From Aequorivita aquimaris (GTDB lineage Bacteria; Bacteroidota; Bacteroidia; Flavobacteriales; Flavobacteriaceae), in assembly GCF_001573155.1 (NCBI RefSeq), contig NZ_JRWG01000001.1, positions 62,001 through 126,000 of the forward strand: 64,000 bases of DNA. The letters are read 5' to 3'. Of the stretch, positions 16,539-44,769 are shown piece after piece. Each line of letters opens with the position of its first letter. Position 1 is the first letter of the stretch. A program made the position numbers and the translations under genes. The notes under the pieces are model-generated. The model was not told the origin of the DNA, made no database searches, and saw only the letters and a list, made by a program, of their open reading frames with translations.

Positions 16539-16596
16539 AAAACTTTTCCTAAAATTTTAAATTTCCATATTTAATTTCACTCATTCTTAAATTAAA

Positions 16597-17916
16597 TTAT
16601 TTCTCAATTTCAGAATAAACATACATAATCTTGCCCGTTCTCGTCAAATTAATTTTATCGGCAAATATCACATGGATTTGAGAATGAGGTAATTCTTTAT
16701 TAATCTTTTTTAATATGCTTTCCAATTCACTTTCTTCGTAATCTTTGTTTTTCACTATATATAAATTTAGAACAGAAATAGATTTTTGAATTAGTTGAAA
16801 TGATTTAATCCCCTTTTTATTAAAAAATAATGTTGTGAAAAACTGTCCATCTATTTTAGTGCCGTCATTTCTATAAATCACACCTAGTGTTCGTCCAATC
16901 ACTTTTTCCATTTTTAACACCCCCCACTCCATATCATCACCTTTAACTGCACGGTCGCCAATTTTATATCTCAACAAGGGCATATAAAAATTATTAAGTG
17001 TTGTAATTACTATTTCGCCTTCTTCTCCCTTTTTCACAGGATTGTTATCATCATCCAGTATTTCCACAAAAACATTGTCAAACATCACGTACATTCCTTG
17101 CAGACCCTTAACTTCCGTTGCAATTGCAGAGACTTCTCTTGATCCATAGAAGTTATATACATAAGCAAAGTTAAATGCTTTACTAATTTCTTTGCGCATT
17201 TCAGGATACAACGGGCCTGTAGTGCAATGAATAGTCGGTTTAAAATTTATTTTAATCGAATTCTTATTGATATATTTTGCAATATCATAAAGGGAGTGTA
17301 CATAGGCCTTAATAAACAAAGGTTTTTTTTTATTAAGAATTTTTACGTAATATGCAATGATGGAATCATTTAGAACAAAGGTGTTAAGAGTAGTTTTATT
17401 ATGAATTAGAGATTTGATATTAAATTGATTGTTTGAGTTGTACATATCTCTTTCTGCACCCCATAAATCGGCAGATTTATCATAAAAATTTATACCATTT
17501 AAGTGTAAGGCATAAAAATAATTTACTGTTCCACAAATACCTTGATCTTTTGTTTGATAAAACTCTAAGGGTTCGCCGGTTGAACCACCAGAAGTATTTT
17601 TGCGCACCTTTTGCATTTTAGAATAACTATCATTAAATAACTCATTACTCTTGGTTCTAATAATATCTTTTGTAAGTACGGGGATTTTTTGAAGATCTTT
17701 ATATGAGAAATTATTTGGGTCGATTGACACATTCATATTTTTGTAATAAGGGACTTGTTCAAAAGCAGTTTTCAAAACTTTTTTTAACTTATCGAGTTGA
17801 TGTACTCTTTTAGTTTCAACATCCTGAATATTCAACTTTTTTAGTACTTGTAAAGACCAATAAATTTTAGGTGTAAATATGAATTTATAGGTAAATGAAA
17901 TTAAATTATTTATCAT
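16597..17916 (-). CDS. CapK-like / phenylacetate-CoA ligase family adenylate-forming protein
   Basis: A 439-residue ANL-superfamily protein. The phosphate-binding loop NTSGGSTGEPLEFYQT is near residue 107. NFYGSREVSAIATE corresponds to the adenine-binding motif and PLLRYKIGDRA to the hinge region. Homologues recur in capsule loci (CapK of Staphylococcus aureus), where they may activate a carboxylic acid for sugar decoration. The substrate is unknown. The gene lies 58 bp upstream of wzy and 90 bp downstream of the CapA-like gene, in the most AT-rich part of the locus. Confidence 0.8.
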   Translation of the reverse strand: MINNLISFTYKFIFTPKIYWSLQVLKKLNIQDVETKRVHQLDKLKKVLKTAFEQVPYYKNMNVSIDPNNFSYKDLQKIPVLTKDIIRTKSNELFNDSYSKMQKVRKNTSGGSTGEPLEFYQTKDQGICGTVNYFYALHLNGINFYDKSADLWGAERDMYNSNNQFNIKSLIHNKTTLNTFVLNDSIIAYYVKILNKKKPLFIKAYVHSLYDIAKYINKNSIKINFKPTIHCTTGPLYPEMRKEISKAFNFAYVYNFYGSREVSAIATEVKGLQGMYVMFDNVFVEILDDDNNPVKKGEEGEIVITTLNNFYMPLLRYKIGDRAVKGDDMEWGVLKMEKVIGRTLGVIYRNDGTKIDGQFFTTLFFNKKGIKSFQLIQKSISVLNLYIVKNKDYEESELESILKKINKELPHSQIHVIFADKINLTRTGKIMYVYSEIEK

Positions 17917-18006
17917 CGTATTTATATGGTTTTATAAATAGCACTTTTAGCCTCATAATGCTAAATCCAAAGCTCTTAAAAACTTTTTTTTGATGTACCG
18001 CTATTT

Positions 18007-19122
18007 TCATTTTTTTAGAATCTCATTTAAAAATACTTTTGAAGCATCTCTATGTGCCTCACATCTCAATAAATTAAGATAGAGAGCAGAAGCCTTTTTC
18101 TGAGGTTTGAGTATTCCAGTTTTATTCAACACCGCCTTTAAATATTTATTTTTGACAAAGGTGGAGGGAGACCAATAACTTGAGTAGGTTTTTGTTCTTT
18201 GTTTTACAAAATATTCCCACGAATTTTTAAGGGTTGCGAAATCTTGAATTTCACTACTGTACGTAGCAAATCTTTTATCTATATTCTCTTTTGCTTTACC
18301 AGATAATAAACTTAACCCAAAATTATCTTTGTTTTGAATAACTGAAAAGTGAGAAGTTGTAACTTTTCCTTCATTAATTTCAATTTCCAATACTAATCCA
18401 GTATACCAATCATTATAAGTACTTGGTTCAGTAAATAAGAAATTACCTAAACTGTAATAAATCGGTTTGCCATTATGTATTTCCCTCCCACTGATACAAT
18501 GCGTATGATGTCCTATAACCATATCAGCTCCATTATCTATATAAAAGCGATATTGCTTTTGCATTCGAGGGCTTGGCAAATTATAAAATTCATGACCTCC
18601 GTGAACAATTACAAAAACAAAATCACTTTTAGATTTTGCTTCTTGAATTTGTTTTGCATCGTCTATCAAATCCATGCCGTTTGCCCCAGCTGTAATTTCT
18701 GTAGCAGAAGCCCATTCATTCTCGGCCATATTAATGATAGCGATTTTACCTTCTGCAGATTCTATATAAAAAACTTTTGAAGCTGTTTCTTTATTTTTTC
18801 CCGCTCCTACTGTTGCTATTGAATTTTCTTGACAGAACCTTAAGGTATCCAACACTCCTTGTTGGTCATAGTCCAGTACGTGATTATTTGCTAATGTAAC
18901 TAAATCAATTTCCAAAACTTTTAAAACAGCGAGCGTACTCACTTTATTGACTTTTAAATGAGGTCCCGTTTTTATAATTTTTGAATTGCTGTTGGTTACA
19001 GGCGCTTCTAAATTCACAATATTATAATCTGAATTTTGAAATAAGCTAATTATCTCCTTATTGATATTATCAATTGGATAATCTATATTAATGACAAAAT
19101 CACCGGTTATTAAAATTTTCAT
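18007..19122 (-). CDS. CapA-family metallophosphoesterase-fold protein
   Basis: A 371-residue protein of the PGA_cap/CapA family. It has the order of metal-binding motifs of a calcineurin-like fold: ILITGDFVI at the N-terminus, NLEAPVT, TLANNHVLDY, FVIVHGGHEFY and VIGHHTHCISG. No signal peptide is evident. CapA was first described in poly-gamma-glutamate capsule synthesis, but cytoplasmic homologues occur in many polysaccharide loci with unknown roles. No CapB or CapC homologue is nearby, so a poly-glutamate capsule is not implied. It lies 4 bp after the GT2 gene. Confidence 0.82.
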   Translation of the reverse strand: MKILITGDFVINIDYPIDNINKEIISLFQNSDYNIVNLEAPVTNSNSKIIKTGPHLKVNKVSTLAVLKVLEIDLVTLANNHVLDYDQQGVLDTLRFCQENSIATVGAGKNKETASKVFYIESAEGKIAIINMAENEWASATEITAGANGMDLIDDAKQIQEAKSKSDFVFVIVHGGHEFYNLPSPRMQKQYRFYIDNGADMVIGHHTHCISGREIHNGKPIYYSLGNFLFTEPSTYNDWYTGLVLEIEINEGKVTTSHFSVIQNKDNFGLSLLSGKAKENIDKRFATYSSEIQDFATLKNSWEYFVKQRTKTYSSYWSPSTFVKNKYLKAVLNKTGILKPQKKASALYLNLLRCEAHRDASKVFLNEILKK

Positions 19123-19126
19123 ATAG

Positions 19127-19942
19127 CTAATATTTTAAGATATCTGAAAAAGATATAAAGCCTTTGTGCTTTTTCTTTAATTTAATAAAATCTTCTATTT
19201 TTCTTTGCTTTATGAATGATTTTAAAACATTTGAAATTTGCTTATTATAGTAAGCCTTTTCAGAATCAGTACTATTATCTAAGAATTGATAATTATAAAC
19301 TCTACTTTTTTCCAGTATAAATTTCAGGTCACTTCTATTTTCAGCCTCACAACGATAAATAGCTGTAATTTTCTTAGACCTTATAAAAATATATTTCCTG
19401 CCAATTCTTCCCCATAATTCTAAATCTTCTCCTCTATTTAATAAAACATTAAACCCTCCTATTTCATCAAAGATAGAATTATGGATACAAGTTACCGAGG
19501 TCCAAAAAAAATGATGTTTAATTGCTTCTTTAAAATAATCTTCAATTATAATAACTGAATTATCCTGAATCATTGGAAGAGTGTTATTACTTCTAACATA
19601 AGAAGTACAAAACACTTTATGTCGTGAATAATCACTTATCATTTCTTTAAGAGTCATTAAATGCTCCTTCTCCCACAAATCATCCGCATCCAAAAAACAA
19701 ATCCATTCGTGCTTTGCGTGTTTAATTCCTGTGTTTCTAGCAGCAGAAACACCTTGATTTTCCTGATGGATCAAACGAATTCTATCATCTTTGATTTGCT
19801 CCACGACTTCTACACTTTTATCGGTAGAACCATCATTTACAATAACAATTTCAAAATCTTTGTAAGTCTGATTTACTACAGATTTTATAGTGTTAAAAAC
19901 GCTTAATTCTTTATTATATAATGGGATTACTACGGTAAACAT
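19127..19942 (-). CDS. GT2 family glycosyltransferase
   Basis: A 271-residue GT-A enzyme. The N-terminal FTVVIPLYNKELSVFNTI and IVNDGSTDKS are the nucleotide-binding strands, and CFLDADDLW (~85-92) carries the DXD metal-binding motif. It lies 1 bp from the pyruvyl transferase and 4 bp from the CapA-like gene, so it is clearly part of the same transcript. It should add one sugar of the repeat unit at the cytoplasmic membrane. The donor is unknown. Confidence 0.88.
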   Translation of the reverse strand: MFTVVIPLYNKELSVFNTIKSVVNQTYKDFEIVIVNDGSTDKSVEVVEQIKDDRIRLIHQENQGVSAARNTGIKHAKHEWICFLDADDLWEKEHLMTLKEMISDYSRHKVFCTSYVRSNNTLPMIQDNSVIIIEDYFKEAIKHHFFWTSVTCIHNSIFDEIGGFNVLLNRGEDLELWGRIGRKYIFIRSKKITAIYRCEAENRSDLKFILEKSRVYNYQFLDNSTDSEKAYYNKQISNVLKSFIKQRKIEDFIKLKKKHKGFISFSDILKY

Positions 19943-19943
19943 T

Positions 19944-21059
19944 TTAAAAATTTATTGCAGTGAAATTTATTCTTGCCTTTTCAGTCATTTCTTTAATATG
20001 TTTTGGTTTACTATATATACTAGGATTATTTACTATCTCTACTATCTGTTCGGCTTTTTTATTTACATCAAATTCACTATTAAATAATCTATACATATTA
20101 TTATACCCTACATTATTAAGAAAATCACCACATTTTCTATGATATTCGTTTAGCATAAAAGGCACTTCTGCAAAACAAGCAAAAATTGCTGCATGCAACC
20201 TTGTTGAAACTACTAAATCACATTGCGCTATGGACTCCCAAGTTAGTTTTGTATTTTTATTGTAATAGAAAATCTCAAAATTTTTAGGCGAAGCCTTTTC
20301 AACAGTTTCTGTAGTCAGTTTTAAATCTCCATATTTAGGATTTCCATTTATTACGTAAAATCTGAAATGAAAATTACCTAATTTGTCTAATTTCTTAATT
20401 AAATCAATTAGCATAGTATTTCTTTTTATTTCCATTGAAGAATTCATTCCTACTTGATGAGATTCATAAGGACATACGCTAATACCAATTATTTTAATTT
20501 GATTATTTTTTTTTTGAAATAAATAATTATAAATCTCTGGAAGCAAGGCGGCTAAATCGAAGGCATTGATAGGATTATAGGGCAAGTCCCATTCTGAAAC
20601 AATATCGTATGAAGCTTGGTCTCTAACGGCGAGAAAATCCATATGTTTTAAATAGGATTGAATTGCTCTTTCGTTCTCGATAGATTTAAATGGACCAATC
20701 GATACACCAATTGCTCCATATTTTAAATCCTTACCATTTTTTTTTCTTTGAACCGCCTTATACCTTATGTTAGAAGGACTTAATCGGGAATGTATAGTTG
20801 AGCCACCAGCATAAATAAAAGCTTGTGTATTGCTTAATAAGCAATCTGCCTGTAAAGAATAAGTCTTTGGTATTGTCAATGGGTAACCACTGACAGGAAA
20901 CAATGTTTTAGGAAGATTCTCAGATTTTGCAAGAAATCTGTTATTTGTCTTATTCCAATATTTATTTGCACCCCAAGAAGCCACTTCTACAAAAGCATCA
21001 TCCCCTGTGTTTTGTTGTCCATAATATCCAGTAAATAATATGTCTGAATTAAATATCAT
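19944..21059 (-). CDS. Polysaccharide pyruvyl transferase family protein
   Basis: A 371-residue member of the PS_pyruv_trans family (CsaB/WcaK type). It opens with ILFTGYYGQQNTGDDAFVEV, the family's glycine-rich first loop. Other typical elements are AFIYAGGSTIHSR, GAIGVSIGPF and CDLVVSTRLHAAIFACFAEVP. These enzymes transfer pyruvate from phosphoenolpyruvate to form a ketal on a sugar, which adds negative charge to the polymer. It lies 3 bp after wzx. A pyruvylated, acidic capsule is therefore predicted. Confidence 0.87.
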   Translation of the reverse strand: MIFNSDILFTGYYGQQNTGDDAFVEVASWGANKYWNKTNNRFLAKSENLPKTLFPVSGYPLTIPKTYSLQADCLLSNTQAFIYAGGSTIHSRLSPSNIRYKAVQRKKNGKDLKYGAIGVSIGPFKSIENERAIQSYLKHMDFLAVRDQASYDIVSEWDLPYNPINAFDLAALLPEIYNYLFQKKNNQIKIIGISVCPYESHQVGMNSSMEIKRNTMLIDLIKKLDKLGNFHFRFYVINGNPKYGDLKLTTETVEKASPKNFEIFYYNKNTKLTWESIAQCDLVVSTRLHAAIFACFAEVPFMLNEYHRKCGDFLNNVGYNNMYRLFNSEFDVNKKAEQIVEIVNNPSIYSKPKHIKEMTEKARINFTAINF

Positions 21060-21062
21060 ATT

Positions 21063-22490
21063 CTATTTTCTGATTAAATTTCTAATAACTTCAATTATCT
21101 GTTTTTCAAATGATAAAACAGAAAATACATATAAGGCACCATAAATGGTGGTACCAATTAATATGTTTGCTATTAAATAGGACGTATCTGTGTAGGGCAA
21201 TACAAAAAAACAAATTATACCTACTATAATTCCTATTAGATAAAGCAAACTTATATCCTTTAACTGTTCCCAAACTTTATAATTAATCAGTCGTCCAGAA
21301 ACAATCATATTAACCATCACAAACAAATAAGAAACTACTGTTAAAGAAATCACTAAGGGCATAATGCCAAATGGTAGGGCTATAGCAATAGCAGCTACAC
21401 CAAGAATCTTTTTGATTACTTCAACTTTTAAAAACAAATCGCTCCTTCCCTTTACCTTAAGGATATTAAGATTGTAACCACTAATAGGGCGCACTATAGA
21501 AGCAATCGCTAATATTTTAAAATAAGGTACTGCAGGCATCCATTTTTCACCAAATACCAACAAGAATAAATCATCTGCTACAAGAATTAAAATAAACATT
21601 ACTGGAATTGCTACGCTCAAAACCAGTTTCATCGTTTTCTTGCAAGCATTTTTTAATTCCTTGTCGGTTTCAATTTTAGCAAACATTGGGTATGTAACTT
21701 TTCCCAATACACTACCAATTTGGTTTACTGGGAACAATCGCATTGATTCTGCTTGATAGAAAAAGCCAACTTGAGCTGGACTAAAGAATTTCCCAATTAC
21801 AATATTATAAGCATTATTATATATTCTATCCAGCAATCCCGAGAGTGTCATTTTATAACCAAAATTAAAATGATATTTTAGTTTGCTTTTATCTATGATA
21901 AAAGACGGCCTCCAATCGGTCATTAGCCAATACTGCAAACTTAAAGCTGTTACTTGTGCCAAATTCAACCAGACCAAACTCCACACCCCATAGCCCATTA
22001 AAGCTAAAGTGACTCCCGTTATAGCTCCAATTACCGTAGATGGAATTTGAAAGGTCATTTGCTTTTTAAAATTCATTTCTTTAGTGAGTTTTGCCACGTG
22101 AACTGCTGAAAAAGCATTAATCACAAACATTAGAGCAAACACCCTAACTATTTCCGTTAAAATAGCTTGATCATAAAAATCAGCAATTAATGGAGCACAA
22201 ACAAAAACAATTAAATAAACAAAAATACTTACCGATAAATTAGTCATGAAGACTGTAGAGTAATCTTTGTTATCAGCATTTTTAGTTCTTATCAAAGAAG
22301 TGGTCATCCCACCATCCATTAGCATTTGTCCAATTGAAACAAAGATGTTAATCATCGCAATTAACCCAAACATTTCTGGCATTAGTAAACGAGCCAAAAC
22401 AATTTGCACTCCAAAATTGATAATTTGCACAGAAAATTGCTGTGCAAAGGTCCATATTACGCCACTGATTGCTTGTTGCTTTAAGCTCAT
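21063..22490 (-). CDS. wzx: Wzx-type lipopolysaccharide/capsule flippase
   Basis: A 475-residue member of the MOP flippase superfamily with about 12-14 hydrophobic helices. The N-terminus LKQQAISGVIWTFAQQFSVQ and the segment VLARLLMPEMFGLIAMINIF are typical of the Polysacc_synt_3 (WzxC) group. It would flip undecaprenyl-linked repeat units to the periplasm. It is the first gene of the capsule operon, downstream of a consensus promoter at 22614-22648 and a ~120-nt leader with a hairpin. Confidence 0.9.
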   Translation of the reverse strand: MSLKQQAISGVIWTFAQQFSVQIINFGVQIVLARLLMPEMFGLIAMINIFVSIGQMLMDGGMTTSLIRTKNADNKDYSTVFMTNLSVSIFVYLIVFVCAPLIADFYDQAILTEIVRVFALMFVINAFSAVHVAKLTKEMNFKKQMTFQIPSTVIGAITGVTLALMGYGVWSLVWLNLAQVTALSLQYWLMTDWRPSFIIDKSKLKYHFNFGYKMTLSGLLDRIYNNAYNIVIGKFFSPAQVGFFYQAESMRLFPVNQIGSVLGKVTYPMFAKIETDKELKNACKKTMKLVLSVAIPVMFILILVADDLFLLVFGEKWMPAVPYFKILAIASIVRPISGYNLNILKVKGRSDLFLKVEVIKKILGVAAIAIALPFGIMPLVISLTVVSYLFVMVNMIVSGRLINYKVWEQLKDISLLYLIGIIVGIICFFVLPYTDTSYLIANILIGTTIYGALYVFSVLSFEKQIIEVIRNLIRK

Positions 22491-30415: not shown

Positions 30416-30790
30416 TTATTTTTCATTATTCTTCTGCTGTAAATATCTAATGTAACCGTTAATTAATTGTATACATTTTTCTGTCTGTAAACGAACGGCA
30501 TTAAGAGTTTCCAAATTTATATAATCACAGTCTTTTGCTTCAATGCAATGATCCCAAATTTCAGCAACTGAACCTCTTGAAAAACGTAAAAAATTGATGT
30601 TCTCTTTGTAATGATACCTCCCCCAGCCTTCCGCTATATTTGCAGTGGAAGAACGTGCAGCACGCAGTATTTGCGCGTGAAGTTCAAATTTTTCAATTTT
30701 TGGCAACTTTTTCAAAACATTAGTTTTCAAATAAGTTTTCAAATTATAACAAGCTTGCCAACAATGCAGCTCTTCAAAATTTCCTGCCAT
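30416..30790 (-). CDS. Four-helix-bundle protein (S23/IVS type)
   Basis: A 124-residue protein of the four-helix-bundle family first seen in 23S rRNA intervening sequences. The family signature RAARSSTANIAEGWGRY is central, followed by NFLRFSRGSVAEIWDHC. It has four predicted helices and no transmembrane segment. It sits between cysC and cysD with AT-rich flanks of about 100 bp on each side and a 15-bp tandem repeat upstream. It is not known to act in sulfur metabolism. The likely explanation is insertion into the operon. Confidence 0.88.
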   Translation of the reverse strand: MAGNFEELHCWQACYNLKTYLKTNVLKKLPKIEKFELHAQILRAARSSTANIAEGWGRYHYKENINFLRFSRGSVAEIWDHCIEAKDCDYINLETLNAVRLQTEKCIQLINGYIRYLQQKNNEK

Positions 30791-33767: not shown

Positions 33768-36700
33768 TTAAAAATCAAATCCCAATCCAAAGCTAAGCCT
33801 TGTTCCCTCAGTAGAATTGAACAAACTAAGGTTAACATTCGCTCCACCCGGTCCATTTATCCAAAAACCACCACCTCTGGAATTGTGCCACTTATTTGAA
33901 CTATCATCAGCCAGCCAAACTCTTCCTAAATCTGCACCTCCATAAATACCAATCTGAAATGGCAACAACCCCACTTTAAACATTGGAAAGCTATATCGCA
34001 GATCTGCACTGCCCACCAAAAACGATTTCCCTGTAAAACGCTGTTCCCTATAGCCCCTTAAACCATTGTCTCCTCCCAGATTTGCAGCTTGATAAAACTG
34101 GTACTTCTGTCCCATATTTAACTGGTAATTAATGTTGGTTTTCAGCACTAAGGTCCTGTTCTTAACTAAAGTATTATAAAACCCGAGACGTGTTTTTAAA
34201 AAGCCAAACACCTCATCCATATCTTCCAAATTATCGGTAACTCCCGCGTTAAGATCAAACATCATCCCTATCGTCGGGTTTTGGGGGTCGTCAAAACTTC
34301 GGTAATTATAAATCCCTTCCAAGGTGCCGAAATAGCTTGTTTCTCCTTTATTTTCAACTGTTGCTTCAGAAATAAAATTGGTTGGTGAATTTCCCACCTC
34401 ATAAGCGTCAAAGGTAGTTTGCAACTTGAAAAAACTACCAAAATTACTATTGCGAAGCAATCCAATATTTCCTGAAATATGCTGCACATCTACCCTATTA
34501 TAATCATACCCATTTTCGTCCTGCAGATTTTGGGTTTCATTTCCAAAGCCAAAAAAATTAACCTTGTAATTTGGACTGGTAAGCCGGGCGCCAAAACTTA
34601 GATTTAAATCGTCTTTTATATTCGCAAATTCTCCAGAATATGAAAGTTCAAAACTATTGATATCAGTAAAATAGGCTAAACTTACTATGTGTTTTTGGGA
34701 AAATGGATTTCTTTGAAAATTATCTACCCTATAAGCATATTGCAGTGCCGCACGAAAGCCGTCGTCGGGATTATACCCAATTGCCGAAACCAATCCTTGC
34801 GAACGATCTATTTGCTTTCGATAATCATAGGTGTTTAGATTGTAAATATCCGTATAACGTATGCTCCCACCCTTTTTTTCTTCAATTACATTCGGCATAC
34901 TTTCATAATCGTAAACCTTTAATCTTCTACCCTTTTTTAAACTAAAATTGTCTTTATCCCTTCCTCCAATTATTCGCAAAAAAATTAAATCATCTCCCGC
35001 TCCATTTACAATAAACCTATCATTACCATTTAGGCCGTAGATCCATATTTCTTTAGTATCGTTTCTTGAAAATGTTCTATCAATTATGGTATCTGATTTT
35101 ATTCCATTGATGGTTGTAAAGCTTCTCACCAGCGTTTTACCGTCCGGAAGTCTTGTTATCTCAAACAGATCGTCATAATCGGTTCCTACAATAGTTTGTA
35201 ATGTGGAAAGATAACTGTAGTAATTATCTGCGATGGTAACCAGATTCTTCTTTCGTTCCTTTAATTTCTGCTTAATATCTTCAAGGGCTTCATCCTGAAC
35301 TTCTGGTGGAATGTTGTTAAAAGCCATTTCAATTACCGCATCGGTAATACTGTCCTGTATGGATTCTGCCAAATATTTCCACTGTGCCCTGCCCGAATTT
35401 TTCAATAAGGCCCGATCTAGAATCACACCTTCTTTATTGAACCATTCCAAATCGTTCAAGTTTTCACCATATACGTGAGTTTGCAGAGACCCGTTAAATA
35501 GCGAACGGGTGTAATCGAAAATATTTCCTTCAAAACTTGAAAAGGCATTGTCGCGGTTGTTGGGTATGGGAACGTAAACATTTTTTTTATATCGGTTGTA
35601 GTATTCTGCCCATTGCCAGTGGTTTGGCTCTCGGTCCCAATCGCCAATTAGCATATCAAACAATCTGGATTTTATATAATTTTCCTCATCAACTTGAACA
35701 TTTCCTGTCTTTCGGAGTTTGATCAAAATATCATCCGTTGTTTCTACATCATCGGGGTATTTGAAAAGACCTTCTCCTTCGCTCTTCTCGGAAGGTTCTA
35801 TAGAAATCAAATACAAATCATTTCCAAAACGATCATTGTAACCCTCCAAACTTTTCTGCTTGGGAACGTAATATAATTGAGGGGTTGTGTAAAATATATT
35901 TATTGCCCGGGCCATATCCGGAATTGCCATGATAGCATATGGATGCGAAGCGGTATAAAAATTTGTATTTTGTCCTTTTACGGAAGGGACATCAGACTTT
36001 TCAGTATCTGTAGGTTTGTCTTCAGTATCTTCAAAAATGAGTTTTCTTGAAATCTGCAAGGCGTTTTTGCCCATTGCGCGCATACGATATTGGTTACCAT
36101 TTTTGTCTTCCAATAAAAGTGAATTGTAATCCATTCCCTTGTTTTCCTGAATCACTTTTAAGCCTCCATACAAAGTGTCTAAAGAAGCAACTTGTGCAGT
36201 AACTGGTGTTGAGTATGCTTCTTTGTATTTTGCACCCCAAACCGTTTTAAAAAATAATGCCTCATTTATACTATCCTGTTTAAAGATGGGAACGGTGTAC
36301 TGTTGTGGAAATATTTCAGGTAACTCCGAAATATCCCGCTTTATAGGTGCGGGAATAACTTCTTTTTGAAAAAGCATTTTTGGCTGAAAATTTTCACCCT
36401 TCACAAAATAACGCACCCAAGAGGAGCCATCCTCAAACACATCCAGCACCGCAAAACCTTGCATGCCCGTACTAAAAAAACCGTCTTTTCCTAATGCCGC
36501 ATACGATTCTTTTGCACCTCCACCAGAAACAATCTGTTTAAGACCATCTTTTTCGATGTATTGCAAATTATGGTCGTGACCGGATACAAAAACCAATCGC
36601 TTATTATTTTTTACTAGCTCCTGTAGCCTGTTCATTAAATTATTATAGAGCTCATTATATCTATCCTGAACCGAAACCCCGCCCTGGGATCGTACCTGTA

Positions 36701-37481
36701 CCACCAAGGAGGAAAGAAGGGGCATCGGTATTTTTTTTTGGAGAGGGTATAGATGCTTTTCAAGCGCAAAATACCCCCCGTGATTACCATTGGTAAACAT
36801 GGGATGGTGCATGGCGAAGACAATGGTTTTATTTTGGTTTTTCTCCAATTCCAACGCTAGCTCAATAAAGAACTTTTCCCGGGTCTTTATATCGCAATTT
36901 TCATTGATTGTGGGGTTTGCGTTCCAATCCTCCAAATACCATTGCGTGTCTATAATGAGCAACTGAATGTTTTTAGAAACGGCTACACTTTCCAGTGGGC
37001 ATCCATTACTAGGCCTAAACGCATCTTGATCTGGAAATAGCGCTTCCACATAATTTTCTTCACGGGCAACGCCTATTACTCCATCGTTGTACCATTCGTG
37101 GTTACCGGGAATAAATATGGTTTGCCCCTTGTAATCCCTAACTGCTTTGTATTGGGCATCAATCATATTCTCAGATTCCTTTCTTCGCGGGTGACCTTCG
37201 GGATCCATTCCTGATGGGTAAATATTGTCACCCAGATAAATGGTATAATTGCCCTTTGTCTTTTCGTTTTTAAGATAATTGTTGAAGGTAGCTAGCGCAT
37301 CGCTCATACCACCCATAGGTGAAAGACCTGCATCGCCAACCAAGTAAAAAGTTTTTTCTATTTTTTTTTGCGAAGGATACAATGGCATCGCATCCTTATC
37401 CTTAAACTGCGGTGCATACGTAGCGCAGGAAGAGATGAAAAACGCAGTAAAAAATATAAAATAGAACTTTTTAAAAATCAT
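33768..37481 (-). CDS. Lipoprotein metallophosphoesterase fused to a BamA-like beta-barrel (active-site intact)
   Basis: A 1237-residue protein. The lipobox ends at Cys19 (FFISSC). Residues ~43-320 are a purple-acid-phosphatase-like domain with all five metal motifs: GDAG (Asp50), GDNIY (Asp85), GNHE (His128), AMHH (His225/226) and GHDH (His302, His304). A central region of ~450 residues includes FDMLIGDWDREPNHWQW. The last ~350 residues form a surface-antigen (D15/BamA-like) barrel ending in RLSFGLGFDF. It should sit in the outer membrane with the phosphatase in the periplasm or at the surface. It lies 6 bp downstream of its paralogue. Confidence 0.88.
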   Translation of the reverse strand: MIFKKFYFIFFTAFFISSCATYAPQFKDKDAMPLYPSQKKIEKTFYLVGDAGLSPMGGMSDALATFNNYLKNEKTKGNYTIYLGDNIYPSGMDPEGHPRRKESENMIDAQYKAVRDYKGQTIFIPGNHEWYNDGVIGVAREENYVEALFPDQDAFRPSNGCPLESVAVSKNIQLLIIDTQWYLEDWNANPTINENCDIKTREKFFIELALELEKNQNKTIVFAMHHPMFTNGNHGGYFALEKHLYPLQKKIPMPLLSSLVVQVRSQGGVSVQDRYNELYNNLMNRLQELVKNNKRLVFVSGHDHNLQYIEKDGLKQIVSGGGAKESYAALGKDGFFSTGMQGFAVLDVFEDGSSWVRYFVKGENFQPKMLFQKEVIPAPIKRDISELPEIFPQQYTVPIFKQDSINEALFFKTVWGAKYKEAYSTPVTAQVASLDTLYGGLKVIQENKGMDYNSLLLEDKNGNQYRMRAMGKNALQISRKLIFEDTEDKPTDTEKSDVPSVKGQNTNFYTASHPYAIMAIPDMARAINIFYTTPQLYYVPKQKSLEGYNDRFGNDLYLISIEPSEKSEGEGLFKYPDDVETTDDILIKLRKTGNVQVDEENYIKSRLFDMLIGDWDREPNHWQWAEYYNRYKKNVYVPIPNNRDNAFSSFEGNIFDYTRSLFNGSLQTHVYGENLNDLEWFNKEGVILDRALLKNSGRAQWKYLAESIQDSITDAVIEMAFNNIPPEVQDEALEDIKQKLKERKKNLVTIADNYYSYLSTLQTIVGTDYDDLFEITRLPDGKTLVRSFTTINGIKSDTIIDRTFSRNDTKEIWIYGLNGNDRFIVNGAGDDLIFLRIIGGRDKDNFSLKKGRRLKVYDYESMPNVIEEKKGGSIRYTDIYNLNTYDYRKQIDRSQGLVSAIGYNPDDGFRAALQYAYRVDNFQRNPFSQKHIVSLAYFTDINSFELSYSGEFANIKDDLNLSFGARLTSPNYKVNFFGFGNETQNLQDENGYDYNRVDVQHISGNIGLLRNSNFGSFFKLQTTFDAYEVGNSPTNFISEATVENKGETSYFGTLEGIYNYRSFDDPQNPTIGMMFDLNAGVTDNLEDMDEVFGFLKTRLGFYNTLVKNRTLVLKTNINYQLNMGQKYQFYQAANLGGDNGLRGYREQRFTGKSFLVGSADLRYSFPMFKVGLLPFQIGIYGGADLGRVWLADDSSNKWHNSRGGGFWINGPGGANVNLSLFNSTEGTRLSFGLGFDF

Positions 37482-37487
37482 AAATTC

Positions 37488-40400
37488 TTACATTGAAAAA
37501 GCAACGCCAAAGGTGAAGCGTACTCCTTCTTCCCCAGTAAAGACATTAAACGTTCCGCTTAACAAATCTGCAGTATTTACCCAAAATCCGCCTCCATAAG
37601 AATTGTGAAACACATCGGAAGTATCATTTGGAACCCATACCCTTCCCACATCATATCCTCCAAAAATACCCAGCTGTATGGGTAAAAGCGCAGTCTTGAA
37701 TTTATTGAAACTATATCTAAGGTCTGCGCCGGCAACCGCAGCACTTCGTCCTGTAAACCGCTCATCACGATATGCACGAAGCCCAGTATCGCTTCCCAAT
37801 TGGGCACCTTGATAGAACTCAAAGTTATTCCCAATATTGAACTGTCCGCGAACGTCTGTTTTTAGTACCAGTTTTCTGTTGCGCGTCAAAGCGTTGTAAA
37901 AAACTATTTGTGGTTTTACATATCCAAATATTTTTTCGCTATCATCAATATTTTGGGTTCCTCCGGCCACTAATGAAAAATTCATGCCCCGTGTGGGGTT
38001 AACCCTATTGTCATAACTTTCGTATTGATACTTTCCTTCTGCGGAAAGAAAATACTTGGTTTCGTCAAGCTCGGTGGGCGCGGGAATAACTTCGGTTATG
38101 TACCTATCGTTTGTACCTTCCACTTCAATTCCTTCAAAAATAGCCTTGATTTGAAATGTACTTCCGTAAGGGGAATCTTTTGTTACGCCAATAGAGCCCC
38201 CATAGCCACCAATGCGAACGCGATTGTAGTCCATATCAAAGTCAAATTCATATTGTGGGTTAAGGGTTTCATTTCCAAAACCAAAAAAGTTTTCAGAAAA
38301 ATTGGGGTTCTTAAAATAACCTCCCAATAGGAAATTCCAACTTCCGAAAATATTTGCAAACTCGCCTTCGTAATTTATATCAAAACTATTTGTGGCAAAA
38401 TAATAGCCTGAACTTATGCGGTGCTGCTGCGAGAAGGGGTTTCTTTGGAAGCCATTAAAGGTTAGTAAATACGAAGGACCAATTTTAAAGCCATCATCTG
38501 GATTGTACCCTACCGTTGGAAGAAACAAATGAATGCTTTGTTTTTGTTTTTTATAATCGTAAGTGTTAAAATCATAATTATCGGTAAATTTAAATGTAGC
38601 GCCACCTTTTTCCTCTATTGTATTTTTCTTGCTTTTTTGGTCATAAATTTTCACTTTTCGACCATTGGAAATTTTATAGGTGTCATTATTTTGCCCTCCA
38701 ATAATTCTTAAAAATATAGGGTGATCACCTTTTCCTTTTACTTCGAAAACGTCATCATCATCCAATCCATATACCCAAATTGAATTGGTTTCGTCTGCAT
38801 TAAAAGTTCTGTCAACCATTAGCCCGTCCTTTTTTCCATCTTTAATACGGTAAGTCTTGATATTGGTTTTTCCCTCTGGCAAACGGGTTATTTCAAAGTA
38901 ATCATCTTTATCTGTTCCGGTGATTGTTTGGAGTTTTGCAAGATATTCATAATACTCTTCTGCTATTTCAACAAGGTTGTTCCGCCTCCCTTTCAGTTTT
39001 TTTATTATTTCCGCAGCAGTTTCATTCTGTACTTCCTTAGGAAGATCGCTGAAAGCCTCTGCAATTACTTCATCGGTAATACTTTGCTGTACAATTGCTG
39101 CCTCTTCCAGCCACGCTTGCTTTCCATTGTTCTGAATTAAGGCGTGATCCAGTTTTATACCGGCAGCATTAAACCATTTTGTGTGTTTCAACTCTTCATC
39201 GTAAACCTGAAATTGACGTGAAGTACTAAAAACAGTCCTTGCCAAATCAAACAGTCCACCGTCAAAATAGGAATAAACCTGATCGCGATCGCGAGGGATA
39301 GGCTCAAAAGTCACCGTTCCGTCTTCATTGTCGTGTTGTGTAAATCGCCACTGATCGTTATGACGGTCCCAATCGCCCACAAGCATATCAAAAACGCGTG
39401 CGCGTATATACGCCTTTTCGTTTAGTTTGTATTTTTCATCCTCGCGCAGTTTTGCCAATAAATCATCAGTGCTTTCCATATCATCGGGATAATTGAAAAT
39501 AGGTCCCGTGAAAGTTTCATCGGGCCTTTCCACAATCATATAAAGTTCATCTCCATAATCAGCATTAAAATTTCCTAGAGCCTTTTGCTTGGGAACATAA
39601 AAAAGCTTTGGTTTGGTATGCAATATAGATGCGGCTTCTGCCAGCTTAGGTATCGTAAAGGCTCCGTAAGGATGTGCAGCCGTATAGAAGTCGAGAATTA
39701 AATCTTCGGGGATTGTATTTAAGAAATCATTTTCTATTTCCTTATCCTTAATAATAACTGTTTGTAAAAATTGTACGGCGCTCTTTTTTAAAGCTCTCAT
39801 ATTATAGGTTCTGCCCTCCTTATCTTCCAAACGCAAAGAGCGGGTTTGATGGCCTCCTCCTGCTCTAATTACCTTTAAGCCTCCGTAAAGTGTATCGAGC
39901 AGCACTGTTTTTGCCGTAACTTCGGTGCCATACAATTCTCTGTAATGCTCGCCCCATAAAGCTTTGTAAAAACCAGTTTTATCTACCATTTCATCTGTAT
40001 ATACCTGTGATTTTACGGTTTCGGGAAAATTTTCATGCAGGGTTGAAAAATCGTACGTTTCAATAGCGGGGAAAATTTCCTTTTGAAACATCAATTGGTA
40101 ATTTCCATCTTTTTCAGATTTAAAAAACTCTACTTGGGAAGCGCCATTTTTACCAACCTCCAGCTTTGCGAAACCTTCATGTCCATATACAAATTGCCCA
40201 TACTGACCAAGTGCGGCAGCAGTAGCGCCAGAACCGGCACCAGATACAATTTGTTTTACCGTGCCGTCATCATTGTACTGTAGCGACTCATCATGACCCG
40301 AAACAAATACAAGACGATCCAAATCTTTGGTGAGCACTTTAAGACGGCTCATTAAGGCATTATAACGTTCATTATAGCGGTCTTGCTTAGAGATTGCGCC

Positions 40401-41165
40401 TTGGATTTTCACTTGTTTTATTAAGGTGCTGAAAAAATCTTTGTGGATTGCGGGATATTTACCGCCGTGCTCGCCATACGTAATCAAAGGGTGGTACATT
40501 GCAAAAACAATTGTCTTTGTAGCGTTCTTCTTTAATTCACCTTCTATTTCAATAAACAATTTCTCACGGGTTTTGATATCGCACTTATCGTTCATTTTAG
40601 AATTGTTATCCCAATCTTCCAGAAACCATTGGGTATCTAAGACAATCAGATGCACATTATCATTAATATCAATACTTTCCAGAGGGCAACCGTTATTTGG
40701 CTGTAACACATCGGCATCGTTAAAACGTGCTTTAAGAAAATCCTCTTCAAGTTCTAAGCCGTCCACACCACCTATCCAGTCACGATTACCAGGCAGTACC
40801 ACAACCTTTCCCTTAAAGTCTTTCAATGCGTCAACCTGCATTTGCATTCCCTTAGTTGCCCGTGCTTTTGCAGCTTCATCCTTTGGCGGCATTCCTGAGG
40901 GATAAAAACTATTCCCCAAAAACAATACATAGCTATCTTCAGAATTGTTTTCCGCTATATAATTTTTTAAGGATTGAAGTGATTTCGAAGTATTTTCACT
41001 TGATTTTCCAACATTACCTATAAGATAAAAAGTCTTATCTATATTGTTTTTGGAAAGTGGTAGTGGAGCTTCTGAATTGGGGTTCTTAAATTGTGGATTG
41101 TAGCTTGCACAAGCTGAAAAAAGCGCAGCGGCAACAAAAGTTATAAAGATGTTAATTTTATTCAT
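37488..41165 (-). CDS. Paralogous lipoprotein/phosphoesterase-fold/beta-barrel protein with lost metal ligands
   Basis: A 1225-residue paralogue of the next gene with the same layout: lipobox Cys19 (LFSAC), phosphoesterase-fold domain (~45-310), central domain (FDMLVGDWDRHNDQWRF) and BamA-like barrel. Every metal motif is changed: GNVG (Asn51 for Asp), GNSFY (Asn85 for Asp), GNRD (Arg128 for His), AMYH (Tyr224 for the first His) and GHDE (Glu293 for His). The fold elements between them are well kept. It is therefore probably a pseudoenzyme with a binding or structural role, perhaps partnering the active paralogue. It is the first gene of the pair. Confidence 0.87.
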   Translation of the reverse strand: MNKINIFITFVAAALFSACASYNPQFKNPNSEAPLPLSKNNIDKTFYLIGNVGKSSENTSKSLQSLKNYIAENNSEDSYVLFLGNSFYPSGMPPKDEAAKARATKGMQMQVDALKDFKGKVVVLPGNRDWIGGVDGLELEEDFLKARFNDADVLQPNNGCPLESIDINDNVHLIVLDTQWFLEDWDNNSKMNDKCDIKTREKLFIEIEGELKKNATKTIVFAMYHPLITYGEHGGKYPAIHKDFFSTLIKQVKIQGAISKQDRYNERYNALMSRLKVLTKDLDRLVFVSGHDESLQYNDDGTVKQIVSGAGSGATAAALGQYGQFVYGHEGFAKLEVGKNGASQVEFFKSEKDGNYQLMFQKEIFPAIETYDFSTLHENFPETVKSQVYTDEMVDKTGFYKALWGEHYRELYGTEVTAKTVLLDTLYGGLKVIRAGGGHQTRSLRLEDKEGRTYNMRALKKSAVQFLQTVIIKDKEIENDFLNTIPEDLILDFYTAAHPYGAFTIPKLAEAASILHTKPKLFYVPKQKALGNFNADYGDELYMIVERPDETFTGPIFNYPDDMESTDDLLAKLREDEKYKLNEKAYIRARVFDMLVGDWDRHNDQWRFTQHDNEDGTVTFEPIPRDRDQVYSYFDGGLFDLARTVFSTSRQFQVYDEELKHTKWFNAAGIKLDHALIQNNGKQAWLEEAAIVQQSITDEVIAEAFSDLPKEVQNETAAEIIKKLKGRRNNLVEIAEEYYEYLAKLQTITGTDKDDYFEITRLPEGKTNIKTYRIKDGKKDGLMVDRTFNADETNSIWVYGLDDDDVFEVKGKGDHPIFLRIIGGQNNDTYKISNGRKVKIYDQKSKKNTIEEKGGATFKFTDNYDFNTYDYKKQKQSIHLFLPTVGYNPDDGFKIGPSYLLTFNGFQRNPFSQQHRISSGYYFATNSFDINYEGEFANIFGSWNFLLGGYFKNPNFSENFFGFGNETLNPQYEFDFDMDYNRVRIGGYGGSIGVTKDSPYGSTFQIKAIFEGIEVEGTNDRYITEVIPAPTELDETKYFLSAEGKYQYESYDNRVNPTRGMNFSLVAGGTQNIDDSEKIFGYVKPQIVFYNALTRNRKLVLKTDVRGQFNIGNNFEFYQGAQLGSDTGLRAYRDERFTGRSAAVAGADLRYSFNKFKTALLPIQLGIFGGYDVGRVWVPNDTSDVFHNSYGGGFWVNTADLLSGTFNVFTGEEGVRFTFGVAFSM

Positions 41166-41217: not shown

Positions 41218-42402
41218 ATGAGCAATATTGTTGAAGCTGCAGATAATTTTATCTTTCAACTGTTTAAGGACAAGCTTCCAAGCACTTTCGTTTATCACAA
41301 TTATACCCATTCAAAACGTGTTTATAAAAGTATAAATGAAATTATTGAAAACTCCCAATTTGATGTTAAAGATGCTACAATACTGCGTTTGGCGGCTTTG
41401 CTGCATGATACGGGCTATATAATTGGACGGGAAAACCACGAAGAAGAAAGTGTGAAAATTGCGAATAAATTTTTAAAGGAGCATAATGTAGATGATGATA
41501 TAATAAATGGAGTAGAAAAGTGTATTCTTGCCACAAAATTTAAGGATACCACTCCACAATCGGAACTTGAAAAAGCAATTCGAGATGCTGATTCATCACA
41601 TTTTGGCAAGGACTATTTTGAGGAAGCCAGCGAGTTTTTAAGACAAGAGTATTTGATCCAAAAAGTCCATAACTATACCTCACGGGAATGGTTGGATGAA
41701 AATATAAAAGTTTTGGTAGAGAACCATCAATTTTATACCGAATATGCCCTAAAGGAATGGCAACCCGTAAAGGAGGAAAATCTTGCCGATCTGCTAAACA
41801 AACGAAAAAAAAGAAAGGAAAAAATCCAGAAAGAACGTGTAAAGGCAAAGCTAAAGGCACAATATAAAAACGACAGCCCCGAACGCGGCATACAAACCTT
41901 TTACAGGACGGCCTTAAGAAACCATATGAAATTGAGCGATATTGCTGATACAAAAGCGAATATTATGCTTTCTGTAAATGCAATTATAATTTCGTTGGTA
42001 CTTTCCAATCTTATCTCCAAATTGGACAATAACAATTACTTGATTATTCCTACCGCCATTTTTGTACTTTTCAGTGCCATAACTATGATTTTAGCGGTAA
42101 TCGCTACCCGCCCAAACGTTACCCGCGGAGAGTTTACCAAAGAAGATGTAGCTAATAGAAGTGTGAATCTAACCTTCTTCGGAAATTTTCATAAAATGGA
42201 ATTGGAACAATACGAATGGGCCATTGAAGAACTACTAAAGGACAGAAACTATGTGTACAAGTCACTTACTAAAGATTTGTATTTCTTAGGAAAAGTATTG
42301 GACAGGAAATACCGGATTTTAAGGCTTACCTACACAATTTTTGTAGCCGGAACTATTATTTCCTTGATTTCCTTTGCGGTTTTCTTTTATTTGGAAGTAT
42401 AA
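41218..42402 (+). CDS. HD phosphohydrolase fused to a Pycsar-effector transmembrane domain (DUF5706)
   Basis: A 394-residue protein. Residues ~20-190 are an HD domain with YHNYTH (His27/31), LLHDTG (His63-Asp64), NHEEE and DADSSHF (Asp125). A lysine-rich linker (~196-220) follows. The C-terminal part has LSDIADTKANIMLSVNAIII, the conserved start of Pycsar-effector membrane domains, then helices at ~247-268, 275-296 and 370-391. Pycsar membrane effectors disrupt the membrane upon cCMP or cUMP binding. Here the HD domain could hydrolyse a nucleotide signal. No cyclase gene is adjacent. It is convergent with the GAF gene with no spacer. Confidence 0.85.
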   Translation: MSNIVEAADNFIFQLFKDKLPSTFVYHNYTHSKRVYKSINEIIENSQFDVKDATILRLAALLHDTGYIIGRENHEEESVKIANKFLKEHNVDDDIINGVEKCILATKFKDTTPQSELEKAIRDADSSHFGKDYFEEASEFLRQEYLIQKVHNYTSREWLDENIKVLVENHQFYTEYALKEWQPVKEENLADLLNKRKKRKEKIQKERVKAKLKAQYKNDSPERGIQTFYRTALRNHMKLSDIADTKANIMLSVNAIIISLVLSNLISKLDNNNYLIIPTAIFVLFSAITMILAVIATRPNVTRGEFTKEDVANRSVNLTFFGNFHKMELEQYEWAIEELLKDRNYVYKSLTKDLYFLGKVLDRKYRILRLTYTIFVAGTIISLISFAVFFYLEV

Positions 42403-44769
42403 TTACTCCTCGATTTGTGAGATTAGATCCTCATAAGTATAGTATTCCTTAACCTTGTCGTTGCTTTTACTGTAAAGCACCTTTACACGCAAAGCCTTTA
42501 AACCAGTTACCCCTTGTAGATCTTCAAGTTCGAGTATTTCGATTTCTGTATCAATCATTTTTTGATGTTGCAGAAAACTCAAATATTTCAAATACTCTTC
42601 CTCGTCTTCTTTTTGAGAGTAAATTATTGCAATTTTTCCAGGCTCAGTAATACGGTCTTCAGTGCCTTTAATGTTTGCTTTATCTACGCGTTTTTTTACA
42701 ACTTCATAGCGCGCATTGTATGTTCCATCAACGTCAAAGCGTTTTTCATCCATTCGAAAACGAAGTGATAATGAGCCATTGAAAACCAAAATCATTGAAG
42801 CTACGTTTAGGCTCATGGGCAGTGAGTCCTTAAAACGATAAAAACTATTCTCCATTTCGCACATAACCTGGAGCTGCCACAGTTTTAAGTTTTTAAGGTA
42901 TATTTTATTGAACGACCGTTCTTTTGTAATAGCTTCACCAATATATAAATTATGCTCTACTCCATCGGTTTTGAAACGCTCAAAATAATGTGGATACATT
43001 TTTTGGGCCTCCTGTTGCTTGCGGTCTAAAATGGCGGCAAGCCTTTTATTTATTTGCATTACAGACTCATCATAATCTTTTCTGAATTTATAAACAAAGC
43101 CAGTGTTTATGTCAATGAGCTTGTAATATTCATCTACCCATTCCTTATAGATATCATTTTTATGTCTAATATGTTTTAACAAAGGGATGATTTCGGAAGA
43201 AATGAAATTCATTATCTTCCGCTCGGTATCTACCTGCAAATTTTCTTCAATTTCTGTTGAAAAATTTGCAATACTAAACATCATCTGATCAAATATTGGA
43301 AGGGAAGTTTGATTGGAAAGTTTTTTCAAAAGCCCATCGATATAACTCAATTGAAGAATGAGATCTTGCTTGGTAGCCTCGTTTCGCGCCTCGGAAGATC
43401 CTTTTATATCAGTCTGTCCATATAACGGGTAGATGTCCTCAAAAACTATTTCCTTAAAAAAGGTAGGATTGCCCTCATTTATGGTATTGAGATAACGTTT
43501 CGCCTCTTTGCGGAATTTCCAGTGCACACTGCTGTGTATGGCAGTACATTCCTCTTGAATTATAAGTTCAAGCTCATTCTCAAGGTTTTCTTTTGAGCGT
43601 ACAACAGAGTCAACCAAAAAAGGCATAATATCGCGCAGCTTATTGGCATTAATTGTATTTAAGTCATTGGCATTTGGCGAAACCAATTCCAAAACTCCTA
43701 AAATTTTATCATCGTGTACAATAGAAGCAAAAATGGCGCTCCTCATGCCTTGATCCAGCATTTTTTTATAGAGTAGGTTTTCCGGATACATTTCGTGATA
43801 CCGTTGCGCATCGGTTACACAATAAAATTCCTTCTGCTTAAAAAGAGTATAATAGGAAGCACTACAAAGTGCGTCCTTGCTTAATTGAGACTTGTTATTA
43901 TTGAGAATAAAACTGGTAATTTCTTTAAACAAAGTTCTTTCAAAAGATTCGGTTTCCTCATTATAGTCCGTAAAACCGATCATCAATTCTTTTAAATCGA
44001 ATATGGAACGGAAAATACGACTGAATTCCGTATTCTCAAAACCACCGTTTTTTTCCAATCGCAATAGATTCGACTTAAAATCTGAAATAGAAACATTTAG
44101 TGTAACATCTGTCAAGGACGCAATTACAAAGCCATTGAAAATCCAACTTTCTGGCGGAAATTTTTCTTTCCAAACGGAAACATCCTCAAAACTTTCCAAA
44201 AGTTCATTAATATCCTCCTCGGTTATATCTTTGGCCTTATCGGTTTTTTGAATTTCTACAAAATCTGCATTATAGAGCAACCTATAGTTTTTAATCATTC
44301 CACGCGCATCTGGAATGTTGTAATAGTAGGAACGTCTAAAATCAACTTTCTTATCATAATAAGCTCCTAGAATCATACTACAGCCCATGATATAAAATTG
44401 ATCTTCATCAAAATTTATGATGTCCAGTTTAAAATCAGAACCGGCGGCTTCAATTATATTTTTATAGCGTTGTGTACTTTTAAAGGCTACGTCTTGAAAT
44501 GGAATGGTTGCAAATTTAATTTCATTTTGGCCCAATGCCGTTGGAAACAATGGGTTCATAATTGTATTTATCTGCTCTGTATATTCTGATAGCTTATTAA
44601 AATCACTAATACCCTCAGATAACTGTGGAAATTTTTCTTCAACTGAAAGAATTTCAGCAGCAAGATTTTTCTCTCCTTCAGTTTCGGGCGTGTTTTCCTT
44701 GTAAGCATCAAAAACTTTTTTGAAACCTATTTTTAATTTTAATGGAAAATCCCTTTTCAATTTCTTCAT
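42403..44769 (-). CDS. GAF-domain protein
   Basis: A 788-residue cytoplasmic protein without signal peptide or membrane segments. A GAF-like domain lies at about 300-395 (LYKKMLDQGMRSAIFASIVHDDKILGVLELVSPN), typical of ligand-sensing domains. The flanking regions are helical and show no histidine kinase, cyclase or phosphodiesterase motifs. GAF domains bind cyclic nucleotides or other small molecules. It ends immediately at the stop codon of the HD-Pycsar gene (TAATTA) and starts 135 bp from the divergent TlpA-like gene. Function is unknown. Confidence 0.65.
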   Translation of the reverse strand: MKKLKRDFPLKLKIGFKKVFDAYKENTPETEGEKNLAAEILSVEEKFPQLSEGISDFNKLSEYTEQINTIMNPLFPTALGQNEIKFATIPFQDVAFKSTQRYKNIIEAAGSDFKLDIINFDEDQFYIMGCSMILGAYYDKKVDFRRSYYYNIPDARGMIKNYRLLYNADFVEIQKTDKAKDITEEDINELLESFEDVSVWKEKFPPESWIFNGFVIASLTDVTLNVSISDFKSNLLRLEKNGGFENTEFSRIFRSIFDLKELMIGFTDYNEETESFERTLFKEITSFILNNNKSQLSKDALCSASYYTLFKQKEFYCVTDAQRYHEMYPENLLYKKMLDQGMRSAIFASIVHDDKILGVLELVSPNANDLNTINANKLRDIMPFLVDSVVRSKENLENELELIIQEECTAIHSSVHWKFRKEAKRYLNTINEGNPTFFKEIVFEDIYPLYGQTDIKGSSEARNEATKQDLILQLSYIDGLLKKLSNQTSLPIFDQMMFSIANFSTEIEENLQVDTERKIMNFISSEIIPLLKHIRHKNDIYKEWVDEYYKLIDINTGFVYKFRKDYDESVMQINKRLAAILDRKQQEAQKMYPHYFERFKTDGVEHNLYIGEAITKERSFNKIYLKNLKLWQLQVMCEMENSFYRFKDSLPMSLNVASMILVFNGSLSLRFRMDEKRFDVDGTYNARYEVVKKRVDKANIKGTEDRITEPGKIAIIYSQKEDEEEYLKYLSFLQHQKMIDTEIEILELEDLQGVTGLKALRVKVLYSKSNDKVKEYYTYEDLISQIEE

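Follow-up and report, generated by a model that had tools for sequence, protein, structure and literature searches.

Reciprocal loss of active-site residues in a tandem pair of predicted phosphatase and kinase-like barrel proteins of Aequorivita

A window of 64,000 nucleotides from Aequorivita aquimaris (contig NZ_JRWG01000001.1), the whole stretch of DNA analyzed here, contains two tandem genes, pse and act (Table 1; positions are those of the window throughout, and the nearest named genus is Aequorivita). Each product is predicted to consist of a purple-acid-phosphatase-like domain, a kinase-like domain, a beta-rich linker and an outer-membrane barrel. The two proteins have degenerated in opposite domains: pse lacks active-site residues of the phosphatase and retains those of the kinase-like domain, whereas act shows the converse. 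The interpretation we consider probable is that a two-domain ancestor was partitioned between duplicates, pse keeping the kinase-like part and act the phosphatase, which would make them reciprocal pseudoenzymes.

A previous reading based on the sequence only had described two tandem open reading frames (ORFs) with a purple-acid-phosphatase-like domain and a BamA-like barrel, the upstream one being a non-catalytic protein beside a fully active one. The coordinates, strand and motifs that it gave are exact; both ORFs are complete, pse lies 6 bp upstream of act, and the proteins are 45% identical across their full length, barrel included. The domain assignments were also sustained, as Pfam family PF00149 (Metallophos) matches act (E 8.6e-8; 33.3 bits, cut-off 21.5) and the model of pse contains a purple-acid-phosphatase fold and a BamA/TamA-like barrel. 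Missed in that reading, however, was the kinase-like middle domain, which is intact in pse and degenerate in act. For this reason we prefer a reciprocal partition over a dead protein with a live partner.

Reciprocal loss of active-site residues

The five phosphatase motifs read GDAG, GDNIY, GNHE, AMHH and GHDH in act, and GNVG, GNSFY, GNRD, AMYH and GHDE in pse. Their columns were scored across the 17 genomes in which both genes are full-length, the set used for active-site residues and rates; an additional genome, G010, was left out because its act gene is broken. All nine phosphatase columns are retained by act in 17/17 genomes. In pse, the Asp of motif I, the Asp of motif II, the His of motif III and the second His of motif V are each lost in 17/17. 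As ligands are missing from every pse copy, the five motifs are complete in act only. All five motifs are altered in pse, as the earlier reading stated, but not each of them has lost a metal ligand: in motif IV the His before Pro, the usual ligand, is retained in all 17 pse copies. Also kept in pse are the Asn of motif III and the Tyr of motif II (16/17 each) and, less often, the first His of motif V (6/17).

PF00149 was not matched by pse at E up to 0.1. A sequence search against solved structures gave no match for pse at E up to 0.1 either, and only weak matches to purple acid phosphatases for act. Even in pse, however, the N-terminal domain has the purple-acid-phosphatase fold: its model, of good confidence, aligns with the human enzyme (2bq8) with Z 28.5 over 268 residues (root-mean-square deviation, rmsd, 2.7). 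In contrast to that enzyme, two Asp and one His are absent from its ligand motifs, as is the His of motif III. The domain is thus degenerate yet conserved, as the sequence-only reading had proposed, and full length and frame are retained in 18/18 pse orthologues.

A mirror pattern is found in the kinase-like domain. Residues D600, Q605, D626, G437, Q440 and H602 of pse are each retained in 17/17 genomes. In act all but D600 are changed, each in 17/17: in pse numbering, position 605 carries His or Tyr, 626 Asn, 602 Glu, Gln or Ser, 440 Asp or Asn, and 437 Lys, Asn or Ser. Among 88 other homologues, Asp occupies position 626 in 82 and Gln position 605 in 84.

The family was then scored for seven phosphatase (P) and four kinase (K) residues, using only copies longer than 1150 residues; removal of 25 duplicates reduced 197 copies to 172. 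These comprise 92 P+K+, 51 P−K+, 29 P+K− and no P−K− copies, with the broken act of G010, a cut act (L178) and a broken Lacinutrix copy (L202) uncounted. Every P+K− copy (29/29) has a P−K+ copy at the same locus, and the four kinase residues are intact in 51/51 phosphatase-degenerate copies. In genome G018 and in an Ulvibacter metagenome-assembled genome (MAG), the P−K+ companion of the act-type copy is a different copy, placed tail to tail, as if it had taken the place of pse. Loss of the phosphatase is recurrent, with a minimum of 4 changes on a 73-row tree, plus L123 and L151 outside that tree; changes were counted without 10 Aequorivita rows dropped earlier as duplicates.

Evolutionary rates are reciprocal too. 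On a shared tree, parsimony steps in pse and act amounted to 592 and 425 in the phosphatase domain (ratio 1.39, 95% interval 1.15-1.70), 492 and 679 in the kinase-like domain (0.72, 0.61-0.85), 187 and 338 in the linker (0.55), and 625 and 712 in the barrel (0.88, 0.75-1.02). Ten non-overlapping pairs from other genera gave pse/act ratios of 1.31, 0.44, 0.62 and 0.89 for the same domains. The median pairwise ratio of nonsynonymous to synonymous divergence (dN/dS) was 0.03-0.08 in every domain of both proteins, with dS mostly saturated and 6-13 usable pairs out of 136 per domain. For the four domains of pse, medians were 0.03-0.05 (8-10 of 136 pairs per domain with dS below 1.5).

The middle domain and competing explanations

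The middle domain of pse (residues ~400-745) is kinase-like by predicted fold; scans with Pfam and NCBIfam found no family above cut-off for it. An AlphaFold2 model was obtained from an alignment of 86 sequences, made without act-type copies and without six copies having degraded kinase motifs, and reached a predicted local distance difference test (pLDDT) score of 93.4. Top Foldseek matches were CtkA (1.1e-5) and HipA (1.3e-5). In VIA-align, PI4KII beta was at or near the top (Z 14.6, rmsd 4.1, 246 aligned), together with CotH (Z 14.2, rmsd 4.2, 257 aligned) and CtkA (Z 13.8, rmsd 4.3, 233 aligned); nearly all matches listed are kinases or HipA-type proteins by title, and the named kinases have Z 11.3 to 14.6. 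CtkA was also the best PDB sequence for the domain profile, if weak (E 0.053), and PADLOC PDC-M03A weakly matches pse residues 583-736 (3.8e-5).

Profile comparison with hhalign gave 33.6% probability (E 4.4e-4) against 19 CotH domains, with IPRDRDQV aligned to IPYDYDNT and GDWDRH to GNWDNY, and 7.3% against 19 HipA domains, with DWDRHNDQW aligned to NCDDHTKNF. Control profiles scored 0.4% (HD) and 0.3% (GAF); a phosphatase control (98%) is invalid, as it overlaps the query. By these alignments D600 would be the putative catalytic Asp, and Q605 and D626 would correspond to the metal-binding Asn and the DFG-type Asp, respectively, the residues that have these roles in HipA and CotH. The domain resembles the CotH, CtkA, HipA and PI4KII kinases in its fold and in the layout of the pse catalytic motifs. 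It differs from them in being joined to an outer-membrane barrel, and from HipA in having Gln in place of Asn. Both this domain and the phosphatase are putative enzymes.

This domain, which the members of the family have in common, is present in 110 of 296 genomes sampled across the phylum. Outside the 17 Aequorivita pair loci, 88 copies were classified by architecture: 55 have phosphatase and barrel, 18 the barrel only, and 15 neither. A stand-alone version is found in the same genome as the window (G000:C1:451637-452662, L003/L035; open frame of ~427 residues) and in several relatives.

Several observations weigh against a partition of two activities. Similarity to named kinase families is weak. 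Besides the low hhalign probabilities, CotH (PF08757) scored at best 15.8 bits against a cut-off of 23.8 (three proteins scanned, the best being a stand-alone homologue) and HipA_C also fell under its Pfam cut-off. When the 86 members were scanned singly, CotH (4), HipA_C (4) and Fam20C (2) appeared no more often than unrelated families, with like E-values. Most Foldseek matches have template-modelling (TM) scores of 0.2-0.5, and their rmsd is at least 7.7. The periplasm is not expected to contain ATP. Degraded kinase motifs in 6/18 kinase-barrel proteins devoid of phosphatase (L136, L157-L161) indicate that loss of that site need not entail loss of the domain. Because K461, D600, R601 and D628 are retained in act in 17/17 genomes, act may keep some kinase-like activity, and the change of H602 in act proves little, as this residue also varies in L185, L195 and L223, which are doubly intact. 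The residue sets used for scoring the family were fixed after the alignments had been seen, and the 172 copies are a fetched rather than a random set, enriched for relatives of pse, since 77 loci were drawn by likeness to it. The P+K− copies form one clade, with 1 change on the tree, so that loss of the kinase residues is one event. Lastly, in the 73-row tree, which includes more genera, act branches beside Leeuwenhoekiella-type singles (support 84) and pse with third copies (96).

The alternative that survives best retains the partition and modifies the chemistry: the kinase-fold domain would be an enzyme other than a kinase, and the division would be between the phosphatase and some other transferase. 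The Gln aligned with the HipA Asn is in line with this view, as is the probably extracytoplasmic position of the domain, where ATP is scarce, and kinase-fold enzymes with other chemistry are known. However, the nearest folds are kinases and direct support for other chemistry is absent; we regard this alternative as possible but rather doubtful.

We consider it unlikely that pse, itself non-catalytic, serves as partner or regulator to an active phosphatase, act, with a middle domain that is only structural in both. Such a role would agree with the good confidence of the degenerate phosphatase model, with the occurrence of pse in 18/28 Aequorivita genomes and with the presence of Plasmodium GAP50, titled an anchor, among the best fold matches of the pse phosphatase domain (Z 26.8); the degraded motifs in 6/18 kinase-barrel homologues also speak for it. 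It does not account, however, for the four kinase residues being intact in every one of the 51 phosphatase-degenerate copies and lost in act, or for the reversed rates in the kinase-like domain both in the 17-genome set and in the ten other pairs. Neutral decay of a redundant duplicate whose domains drift to loss, to which the 1.39-fold change of the pse phosphatase, the free variation of ligand positions such as the first His of motif V and an act gene in two ORFs in one Aequorivita MAG might be attributed, is highly improbable in view of the length and frame kept in 18/18 pse orthologues, the low dN/dS medians of pse and the persistence of pair and order in several genera.

Conservation, origin and cell location of the pair

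The nearest named record to the locus is an Aequorivita MAG, 97% identical. pse with an adjoining act was found in 18/28 Aequorivita genomes, the window's own counted, with orthologues 71-97% identical; a pair in so many genomes of the genus is more than chance. In the rest, the act orthologue of G018 adjoins a different copy, a lone doubly intact copy from another lineage is present in three genomes, and six have no match at E 1e-60. Neither act nor pse occurs alone in any of the 28 at that threshold, and the possibility, raised with the sequence-only reading, that pse is a lone decayed gene can be discarded. The gene order is conserved, as had been suggested, and extends to Altibacter, Marixanthomonas, Pukyongia, Thermobacterium and several MAGs; in eight of these loci the pair is followed by a third copy. 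Of 27 same-strand pairs, counting that of the window, 21 are separated by 5 to 17 bp; three others overlap by 23 to 53 bp (the longest ORF being used), and the last three have gaps of 66, 135 and 277 bp. The two genes may form an operon, and their products may act as a complex on a substrate. Split genes were also observed: act consists of two ORFs in one Aequorivita MAG (G010, L062, 6297-10012), and so does the Lacinutrix neustonica copy at the corresponding locus (L202, 8001-11711).

Our proposal begins with an outer-membrane lipoprotein that would have combined a purple-acid-phosphatase-like domain, a domain of kinase fold, a beta linker and an Omp85-type barrel of 16 strands. Its gene would have been duplicated in tandem within the lineage that gave rise to Aequorivita, Altibacter, Marixanthomonas and their relatives, or earlier. 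The upstream duplicate, pse, would have kept the kinase-like active site, with its phosphatase reduced to a conserved empty shell. In the downstream duplicate, act, the phosphatase would have been retained and the kinase-like domain would have turned into the empty shell. A 76-row tree places act and pse as sister clades of 18 rows each (support 100 for both, 95 jointly). Constraining act, pse and the third copies to one clade was not rejected (approximately unbiased test, p-AU 0.258). The partition is clear, and it may have started from a single local duplication or from an older one.

The barrel model of pse has 16 strands and is BamA/TamA-like (TamA 4n74, Z 26.7; BamA, up to 26.3; Flavobacterium johnsoniae BamA, 24.8), and identity of 45% through the barrel suggests the same in act. 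Both proteins match NCBIfam Omp85_fam (act 52.5 bits, pse 55.5 bits) under its curated cut-off of 200. The [VL]RG[FY] motif of loop 6 is LRGY or LRGF in 17/17 act copies, and LRGY in 3, LRAY in 13 and LRSY in 1 of the 17 pse copies. A lipobox-like Cys lies within the first 70 residues in 126/172 copies, most often followed by ATY.

Surface lipoproteins of Bacteroidota are usually acidic at positions +1 to +8 after the Cys, and barrel termini normally face the periplasm. Because acidic residues are rare at these positions in the family (20% or less at any single one), and given the orientation of barrel termini and the precedent of PlpD, the phosphatase and kinase-like domains are probably both periplasmic. 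PlpD is a patatin-like Omp85 protein whose enzyme domain stays in the periplasm and forms a homodimer (PMC11116518). It shares with pse and act an enzyme domain fused to an Omp85 barrel; the accessible text describes a lipase-type domain plus POTRA and mentions no kinase-like domain or partitioned twin.

Fusion of a phosphoesterase to Omp85 is already known. The Omp85 'Metallo' subfamily of Heinz and Lithgow 2014 (PMC4104836) has an N-terminal PF00149 and an Omp85 barrel in a non-POTRA architecture. PF00149 is termed a metalloprotease there, whereas the Pfam name is calcineurin-like phosphoesterase; the words phosphatase, phosphoesterase and calcineurin are absent from the main text, and its accessible part mentions neither a kinase-like middle domain nor phosphatase-degenerate or partitioned copies. 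A literature search, mostly without subscription papers, did not find a kinase-like domain on Omp85 proteins or the partition described here. Two other assignments were set aside. One was a subunit of the beta-barrel assembly machinery (BAM): the F. johnsoniae BAM paper (PMC12611786), as far as its text is accessible, never mentions phosphatase, metallophos or phosphoesterase. The other was the Riemerella metallophosphoesterase (Niu 2021), not equated with this family because a review, in its accessible part, counts it among the type IX secretion effectors.

Gene neighborhood and significance

Table 1. Features of the pse-act locus in window coordinates
Feature	Position	Strand	Description
pse	37488..41165	-	1225 aa, lipoprotein-like outer-membrane protein: degenerate phosphatase, intact kinase-like domain, 16-strand barrel (predicted)
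act	33768..37481	-	1237 aa paralogue: phosphatase residues intact, kinase-like domain degenerate, barrel probably as in pse
pse residues 40-369	40059..41048	-	Purple-acid-phosphatase fold; N51, N85, R128, E293 in place of Asp, Asp, His, His
pse residues 400-745	38931..39968	-	Kinase-like domain, putative catalytic residues retained
pse residues 591-632	39270..39395	-	VFDMLVGDWDRHNDQWRF...EPIPRDRDQVYS, putative catalytic segment (D600, Q605, D626)
pse residues 746-875	38541..38930	-	Beta-rich linker from kinase-like domain to barrel (secondary structure of pse model)
pse residues 876-1225	37491..38540	-	Omp85-type barrel, 16 strands (model; TamA 4n74 Z 26.7)
act residues 40-380	36342..37364	-	Metallophos / purple-acid-phosphatase-like, every motif residue present; bounds transferred from pse by alignment
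act residues 607-648	35538..35663	-	LFDMLIGDWDREPNHWQW...VPIPNNRDNAFS, degenerate kinase-like segment: Q605 to H, D626 to N (pse numbering)
HD + PycTM transmembrane protein gene	41218..42402	+	Conserved divergent neighbor; PF18967, PF01966
Second conserved neighbor	42403..44769	-	788 aa; weak GAF match under Pfam cut-off

The HD-PycTM gene is present in 74/77 named loci; in 65 of the 74 it lies within 200 bp, and 73 of them have it on the opposite strand. It is absent from L230, L233 and L235, whose copies are phosphatase-degenerate. For the 55 full-length copies outside the Aequorivita pair loci, it lies within the fetched stretch in 44; the remaining 11 are six phosphatase-degenerate copies (L043, L044, L107, L109, L114, L116) and five doubly intact ones (L106, L121, L134, L139, L140), and in L106 and L121 the gene is just beyond the stretch. 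The gene does, however, accompany the degenerate copies that occupy the usual locus (pse, L123, L151, L225). The 788-residue neighbor accompanies 29/55 full-length copies and is found in 69/77 loci. Counted genome-wide as lower bounds, from hand-picked matches extending past query residue 280 and uncorrected for phylogeny, a PycTM match occurs in at least 93 of the 110 genomes with the kinase-like domain (within 15 kb in at least 81) and in at least 9 genomes without it. Residues H31, H63, D64 and D125 of the HD domain are invariant in 73 HD-PycTM sequences. The label of Pycsar effector may be misleading for this neighbor.

Other features of the window are as follows. Linkers at 34809-35198 (act) and 38541-38930 (pse) contain GLDDDD and GGxxxDxY stretches that presumably resemble calcium-binding beta-roll repeats. 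Three 2-kb bins at 16001-22000 have a GC content of 0.30-0.31, against 0.33-0.45 in the remaining bins, and this stretch is possibly an acquired cluster. A gene for a 23S rRNA-intervening-sequence type protein (30416-30790), whose presence at that place differs among relatives, lies between genes of the 3'-phosphoadenosine 5'-phosphosulfate (PAPS) reductase type (29409) and for adenosine 5'-phosphosulfate (APS) kinase (30890).

A tentative speculation, less likely than not, is that many Bacteroidota have in their outer membrane a barrel-anchored enzyme combining phosphatase and kinase, which together with the divergently encoded HD-PycTM inner-membrane protein would make up a module for envelope signalling or remodelling. 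In Aequorivita and relatives the activities would be split between tandem twins, each carrying the other's domain as a pseudoenzyme, and opposing reactions would be carried out by an obligate pair. Gene order connects the family with a Pycsar-effector-type HD-PycTM protein, and a kinase-like core domain is added to a family that had been classified, in the accessible text, as metalloprotease plus Omp85 (PMC4104836). pse and act are a natural complementary pair of candidate pseudoenzymes, apparently derived from one ancestor, with which the division of a two-activity enzyme between duplicates can be tested directly.

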